In this document: positions 31,142-32,742 of the stretch, piece after piece
How positions within the stretch are numbered: position 1 is the stretch's first letter
Layout of the letters: every line of letters begins with the position of its first letter
From: Candidatus Peregrinibacteria bacterium
Lineage (GTDB): Bacteria; Patescibacteriota; Gracilibacteria; CAIRYL01
Direction: 5' to 3'
Assembly: GCA_016220175.1 (NCBI GenBank)
Contig: JACRHZ010000056.1
Span: forward strand, 1 to 35,808
Length of the DNA: 35,808 nucleotides
Notes under the pieces: generated by a model
Databases searched by the model: none
Told to the model about the DNA's origin: nothing
What the model saw: only the letters and a program-made list of their open reading frames with translations
Program-made: the position numbers and the translations under genes

Positions 31142-31843
31142 TTAAGAATTCTCATCACGAACCATTTTTCCATTTTCCAAATGGATGACGCTGTCCGTGA
31201 AGTTCGCTATTTTCTCATCATGAGTTACGATGAGAAGTGTCATCTGGTATTCTTCTGAAAGTCTGTGGAGAAGCTTCAAAATAAGCTCTCCAGTTTTTCC
31301 GTCAAGATTTCCCGTCGGTTCGTCTGCAAAAAGTATTTTTGGATGATGAATAATAGCTCGCGCAATTGCGCCTCTTTGTCGTTCTCCTCCAGAAAGTTCT
31401 TGAGGTTTATTTGTTGATTTATGAGAAAGCCCAACATCTCTTAAAGCTCCTTCTGCCTTTGTTTTTCGTGCGGAAGCAGACTCTCCTGAAATGAAGAGTG
31501 GCATTGCTATATTTTCTAGGAGTGAGAACTCCGAGAAGAGATAAAAATCTTGAAAAACAAAGCCCATTTCACTGTTTCGATATTGGCATATTTCTTTGGA
31601 TTGCATTTTTGAAATATCTTGGTTCTGAAACAAAATTTGTCCTGATGTTCTCTCAAGAAAACCTGCAGCGAGGTGAAGGAGAGTAGACTTTCCTGAGCCC
31701 GAAGGACCAACGATGGCAACCTTTTCACGATTTTGGATATGCAAAGAGAGAGGACCGAATGTCCACGCATTCTTTTCTCGTGAAAAAGTCCGCTCCACAT
31801 TGCGGAATTCGAGAAGAGGTGATGTTTCAGTACGAGTGGGCAT
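31142..31843 (-). CDS. LolD/MacB-type ABC transporter ATP-binding protein
   Basis: A 233-residue ATPase subunit: Walker A GPSGSGKST near 46-54, Q-loop FVFQDFYLFSEFSLLENI, signature LSGGERQRGAIARA, Walker B ILFADEPTGNLDG, and H-loop THDEK. The NLDG type and length place it with LolD, MacB and FtsE. Such ATPases usually sit next to a permease, but none is present here: RNase P RNA lies upstream and the PUR gene downstream. The permease must be elsewhere or lost. The substrate is unknown. Confidence 0.9.
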   Translation of the reverse strand: MPTRTETSPLLEFRNVERTFSREKNAWTFGPLSLHIQNREKVAIVGPSGSGKSTLLHLAAGFLERTSGQILFQNQDISKMQSKEICQYRNSEMGFVFQDFYLFSEFSLLENIAMPLFISGESASARKTKAEGALRDVGLSHKSTNKPQELSGGERQRGAIARAIIHHPKILFADEPTGNLDGKTGELILKLLHRLSEEYQMTLLIVTHDEKIANFTDSVIHLENGKMVRDENS

Positions 31844-31876
31844 TCATTCTATTAAAAATGGGGATCCTCAATTATA

Positions 31877-32370
31877 AAGCTCATAAGAACACATAAGCCG
31901 GGTTCTGTTCCGCATCTTCTTATCACCAAATGTTTTGAATTCTAAAAATTGGAAACAAGAAGATGCGGGGCAGTCATCTCTCTTGAGAAAATGTCGCCAT
32001 TTTCTTCATGCAGCGGGCGAATACAAAATACAAACGGACAGCTCCTTTTTTGTATTCTCCATCCCGCCTTGCTGGAAGCTGGGGTTTACCAAGGTTTCTC
32101 AATTACTTGAGAACTCCCCGTACCATGTTGGTACTGGGCTTTTCACATTCCTCCGCTTCAGCGGAGTTATAGTCTCTGTGGCACTTTTCCATTCCCGAAG
32201 TTTTCGTTCGGGATGCTCCCGTTAGGAGTCAGCCTTCTGTTTCCAGCCCGGACTTTCCTCCCAGCCCATTCTGCAGAGCACATCGAGGAAAGAAATATAC
32301 TGACAAATGTAAAAGGTCGAATGTGCGATGAAGAATAGGCTGGGCGACCACCGGTGCCCTTATGAGCCTT
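31877..32370 (-). ncRNA. rnpB: RNase P RNA (bacterial type A-like)
   Basis: On the minus strand the two universal core blocks are present in order: GAGGAAAGTCCGGGC near 32247-32262 and ACAGAACCCGGCTTA near 31894-31908. The ends pair as P1 through GCTCATAAG (32359-32367) and CTTATGAGC (31879-31887), a perfect 9-bp helix that sets the boundaries. P2 can form between GGTGGTC and GACTGCC with two G-U pairs. At about 494 nt it is long for this RNA (E. coli 377). Extra length comes partly from a 59-nt hairpin inserted between P2 and the 3' core block. It is divergent from the tRNA-Thr promoter. Confidence 0.93.
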
Positions 32371-32390
32371 CAGAGAATAGCATAATTTCT

Positions 32391-32420
32391 TTGACCACGG
32401 AATGTTTTTTAAGGTAGAAT
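32391..32420 (+). promoter_or_regulatory. Promoter of tRNA-Thr
   Basis: TTGACC (32391-32396), 18-base spacer, TAGAAT (32415-32420), about 14 bases before the mature tRNA 5' end. Confidence 0.65.
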
Positions 32421-32434
32421 CCACGGGCGATTTT

Positions 32435-32509
32435 GCCGGCATAGCTCAGCGGTAGAGCATCCGCCTTGTAAGCGGCAGGTCCTCGGTTCAAGTCCGAGTG
32501 CCGGCTCCA
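32435..32509 (+). tRNA. tRNA-Thr (anticodon UGU)
   Basis: Full cloverleaf of 75 nt with encoded CCA: acceptor GCCGGCA/TGCCGGC, D arm GCTC...GAGC, anticodon loop CTTGTAA (TGT, reads ACA), and T arm CTCGG TTCAAGT CCGAG. The top anticodon-stem pair (27-43) is a U-C mismatch. A palindrome begins inside the CCA. Confidence 0.95.
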
Positions 32510-32657: not shown

Positions 32658-32742
32658 GGGCGGTTAGCCAAGTGGTCAACGGCGACAGACTGTAAATCTG
32701 TTCTCCCTGAGTTCGGGGGTTCGAATCCCTCACCGCCCACCA
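32658..32742 (+). tRNA. tRNA-Tyr (anticodon GUA)
   Basis: Class II tRNA of 85 nt with a long variable arm and encoded CCA: acceptor GGGCGGT/ACCGCCC, anticodon stem ACAGA/TCTGT with loop CTGTAAA (GTA), and T loop TTCGAAT. It lies about 150 bases after tRNA-Thr and has its own -10 box. Confidence 0.95.

Follow-up and report, generated by a model that had tools for sequence, protein, structure and literature searches.

The long hairpin close to the 3′ end of the rnpB gene in this Candidatus Peregrinibacteria genome is best explained as the P19 helix, in an unusually long, lineage-specific form, of a class A RNase P RNA that is functional, and we put the probability of this reading at about 0.93. 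The hairpin is assigned to P19 because it is located between the 3′ strand of P2 and the J19/4-P4 segment, which is the place of P19. Apart from its length it is an ordinary P19, and the length itself is mildly unusual. Positions given below are those of the window, the whole stretch of 35,808 nucleotides that was analysed (contig JACRHZ010000056.1).

The RNase P RNA gene

The rnpB gene was located on the minus strand by a match to the Rfam model RF00010 running from 32362 to 31880 (149.9 bits against a gathering threshold of 100, E = 1.6e-46), in which model positions 1-367 were completely covered. The score bears out the assignment to class A made in the preliminary description. In a duplex fold, P1 comprised 13 bp and reached slightly past both ends of the match (Table 1). 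The conserved regions CR-I (GAGGAAAGUCC) and CR-V (ACAGAACCCGGCUUA) were both exact and pair as P4. Only one RF00010 match existed in the genome (79 contigs, estimated 96.42% complete), and the protein subunit RnpA was encoded in the same genome (PF00825, 61.4 bits, G000:C13:13057-13377). Judged from its sequence, the gene looks functional, since the RF00010 match is single, the core is intact, P1 is complete and RnpA is encoded.

Through a permissive Rfam search of 31860-32400, we found RF00010 to be the sole match above gathering. The sub-gathering matches, among them RNA-OUT (29.2 bits against a threshold of 41) and several animal microRNAs that fell on the hairpin, were rejected as the attraction of such models to a clean hairpin.

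Table 1. Coordinates of rnpB, its structural elements and the neighbouring tRNA genes in the window
Feature	Position	Strand	Basis or remark
rnpB, class A RNase P RNA	31876..32367	(-)	Rfam match 31880-32362, with P1 pairing out to about 31876-32367
ACAGAACCCGGCUUA block: J19/4 and P4 3′ strand, intact	31894..31908	(-)	Rfam alignment and exact block match
P19 hairpin: 12 perfect bp in the outer stem, extended by three pairs to 15; inner stem of 4 bp; 19-nt loop	31910..31968	(-)	Fold and pair probabilities
P2 3′ strand GACUGCC, directly abutting P19	31969..31975	(-)	Rfam alignment and sequence
P3 arm, enlarged, long 83-nt hairpin	32261..32343	(-)	Fold of -30.1 kcal/mol for 32261-32346
tRNA-Thr (TGT)	32435-32509	opposite to rnpB	Just upstream of rnpB
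tRNA-Tyr (GTA)	32658-32742	opposite to rnpB	Just upstream of rnpB

Some further features were observed in this RNA, in its relatives and in its surroundings. In the P15 loop (32008-32075), the usual GGUA on the 3′ side seems to be absent from our reading of the Rfam alignment; despite this, both tRNA genes of the window encode CCA (32507-32509 and 32740-32742). An ORF on the rnpB strand (31142-31843) starts about 32 bases past the end of P1 and contains the motifs GPSGSGKST and LSGGERQ, from which we take it to be ABC-transporter ATPase-like. Within the same family, all five RNAs of the genus g3 (L002, L004, L005, L006 and L007) carried GGAACGUCCGAGC in place of GGAAAGUCCGGGC in CR-I and CUCGGCGUA in place of CCCGGCUUA in CR-V. 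These changes are matched on both strands of P4, a helix otherwise nearly invariant, and one of them is beside the bulged U. Loss of the GGUA motif is described for 23 of 35 CPR RNAs in the accessible part of a survey (PMC8172020).

Geometry and fold of the hairpin

The sequence CCGCATCTTCTT at 31910-31921 is the exact reverse complement of AAGAAGATGCGG at 31957-31968, and 35 bases separate the two arms. The preliminary description had proposed this perfect 12-bp stem, and both the sequence and the fold uphold it. As RNA the outer stem is longer by three pairs, two of them G-U, and reaches 15 bp. The 59-mer of the minus strand folded with -26.4 kcal/mol into the 15-bp outer stem, an inner stem of 4 bp and a loop of 19 nt; its dinucleotide shuffles (n = 200) had a mean of -7.9 kcal/mol, and none of the 200 folded equally well (z = -6.85). 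When the full 492-nt RNA was folded without pseudoknots, 14 P19 pairs, all of the 12 originally proposed among them, had a probability of 1.0 and the fifteenth a probability of 0.89.

No unpaired base lies between the stem and the P2 3′ strand GACUGCC, and the stem ends one base short of ACAGAACCC. In the RF00010 alignment the extra bases fall where the model has no pairing, between P2 and ACAGAACCC. The location described earlier, between the P2 3′ strand and the ACAGAACCC block with the P4 3′ strand, is confirmed. The interpretation then given to this location, a surprising insertion beside the active site, does not hold: the place is the variable helix P19, which is occupied in 119 of 208 RNAs (those of the pattern scan being taken among the matches listed). 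In effect, the covariance-model check with RF00010 assigns the stem to an ordinary variable helix.

Among the standard helices of RNase P RNA in bacteria and archaea, P19 is a variable one (excerpts of PMC12974513, PMC13193133 and PMC4264200); it stacks on P2, varies in length and was lost repeatedly (excerpts of PMC13193133 and PMC12974513). It was among the helices left unaligned for want of sequence conservation, according to the available text of PMC4264200. In the Geobacillus structures, as far as the excerpted account goes, P19 and P2 are coaxially stacked beside the RnpA site, and RnpA binding shifts P19 by up to 20 A (PMC13193133). P19 is also counted among the mobile peripheral elements while the P2-P19 junction is placed in the invariant core (PMC11779636), and it is one of the regions in which particle classes differ (PMC13254310). 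The present hairpin resembles the P19 of Geobacillus stearothermophilus, as presented in the excerpts of PMC13193133 and PMC12974513, in being a variable hairpin that occupies the same place from the P2 3′ strand to J19/4-P4 and is flush on P2, whereas its sequence is unrelated.

The P2-P4 junction in other RNase P RNAs

In 208 RNAs we measured the stretch from a conserved anchor after P18 (AGA..AAT or alike) to ACAGAA, and counted a hairpin when at least 4 bp were formed within a stretch of at least 18 nt. Members of the order and the class contributed 98 RNAs, of 267 genomes with an RF00010 match. These comprised nine order members, 29 class members that were the best-scoring of those not yet included, and 60 further class members picked toward longer matches, which makes the class frequencies those of a biased sample. 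A pattern scan of a public genome collection gave at least 118 loci, of which eight without a recognisable core in the stored stretch were excluded and 110 were measured.

Only a few bases had been thought usual at this site, but a hairpin of at least 4 bp was present in 119 of the 208 RNAs, counting for the pattern scan the matches listed. It was found in two of the nine order members (the RNA under study included), in 18 of the 29 best-scoring class members, in 34 of the 60 further ones and, among the matches listed, in 65 of the 110 RNAs from the pattern scan. As a control, the J2/4 segment of each RNA with at least 18 nt from the anchor to ACAGAA was subjected to 100 base shuffles, with the RNA under study left out. 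Segments equalled by at most 5% of their own shuffles made up 100% of 19, 89% of 35 and, among the matches listed, 86% of 66. The support for P19 across RNAs consists of stems of unrelated sequence that occupy the same site.

Length and lineage history of P19

The span from the anchor to ACAGAA was 67 nt in the RNA under study and at most 50 nt in the 110 pattern-scan RNAs, among the matches listed. Spans of 60 nt or more were found in three of the 208 RNAs (the pattern-scan part again among the matches listed), namely the present one and two class members, L200 and L202, with 66 and 70 nt. Measured from P2 to ACAGAA, the 60 nt found here also differ from known P19 in lying above all 110 pattern-scan RNAs, among the matches listed.

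Among the eight other members of the order, P19 was absent in seven and had 5 bp in one. None of the six from the same family had it; of the two from the other family, one had none and one carried the 5-bp hairpin. Since the order-mates are without P19 or have a short one, the helix was either gained or enlarged here or lost in the others. We consider gain or enlargement in the present lineage as probable, with P19 loss in the other order members as the alternative. In CPR bacteria, RNase P RNAs frequently carry greatly extended helices and lack others (accessible part of PMC8172020), and the extended helix found here resembles the diverged RNAs described there. The extension named as an example in that part is P15, and an enlarged P19 goes unmentioned in it. 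A search of open-licence papers found no paper on the subject of long P19 in these bacteria.

The P3 arm was enlarged as well. From the match start to CR-I we counted about 102 nt; in 60 class members this distance had a median of 40.5 nt and never exceeded 67 nt. In the Rfam alignment 55 P3 bases were omitted from display. Both ends of the P3-P2-P19 column, P3 and P19, are enlarged in this genome. It might be supposed that the joint enlargement is a functional, lineage-specific remodelling, providing a protein docking site, a stabiliser, or a P19 that is cut to give a two-piece ribozyme. We regard this as improbable. P3 and P19 lengths showed no clear correlation in the 60 class members (rank correlation rho = 0.22, p = 0.09), which leaves a link between them unsupported.

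Some bacterial 23S rRNAs carry intervening sequences, and the present hairpin is like them in being an additional, lineage-specific hairpin of a structural RNA. By analogy, a hairpin recently inserted into rnpB could be cut by RNase III, and the two fragments of the RNase P RNA would then be kept together by its helices. The looped stem of 15 + 4 bp and its absence from seven of the eight order-mates would fit such an origin. However, the hairpin differs from the 23S rRNA elements in standing at an established helix position: the site is the natural site of P19, with hairpins in 119 of 208 RNAs (pattern-scan part among the matches listed). Most hairpins at this site are much shorter than the stems that RNase III prefers. 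A search of open-licence papers found no title on such a case in bacterial RNase P RNA. An intervening sequence is therefore very unlikely.

Still less credit can be given to the insertion of a mobile palindrome of the REP or MITE kind into rnpB, even though a long, near-perfect hairpin missing from the same seven order-mates might suggest one. In its own genome (1,490,455 bases, 79 contigs) the only matches of the 62-nt element were the element itself and its reverse strand. After these came a match of 20 bases (E = 0.012), in a genome about 96% complete whose missing part could hold a copy. With a single copy found, this origin is largely excluded. A role outside the folded ribozyme, as a transcription terminator or another regulatory hairpin, suggested by a strong hairpin close to the rnpB 3′ end, was the least credible explanation and was rejected, as no T run follows the hairpin on either strand and the conserved 3′ strands of P4 and P1 lie intact downstream of it.

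Proposed structural role and meaning

With the hairpin read as P19, we propose by analogy with the Geobacillus structures that it stacks end-on upon P2. Such stacking is expected because the stem is flush with the P2 3′ strand and leaves a single base to the J19/4-P4 block. The P3-P2-P19 column would then be prolonged outward, away from the catalytic core, and P4 with its metal sites would be unchanged relative to other RNase P RNAs. As P19 in Geobacillus is a peripheral element stacked on P2, its presence here need not disturb the core. The extra length would stay in the mature RNA, and it is probably tolerated peripheral growth, mildly stabilising or near-neutral at most.

The finding extends the documented P19 variants by one long case, which is of low importance in itself, and shows that related genera can differ greatly in P19 length. 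Should the enlarged P19 and P3 prove to be functional, they would show how far growth of the P3-P2-P19 column can go while catalysis stays undisturbed.
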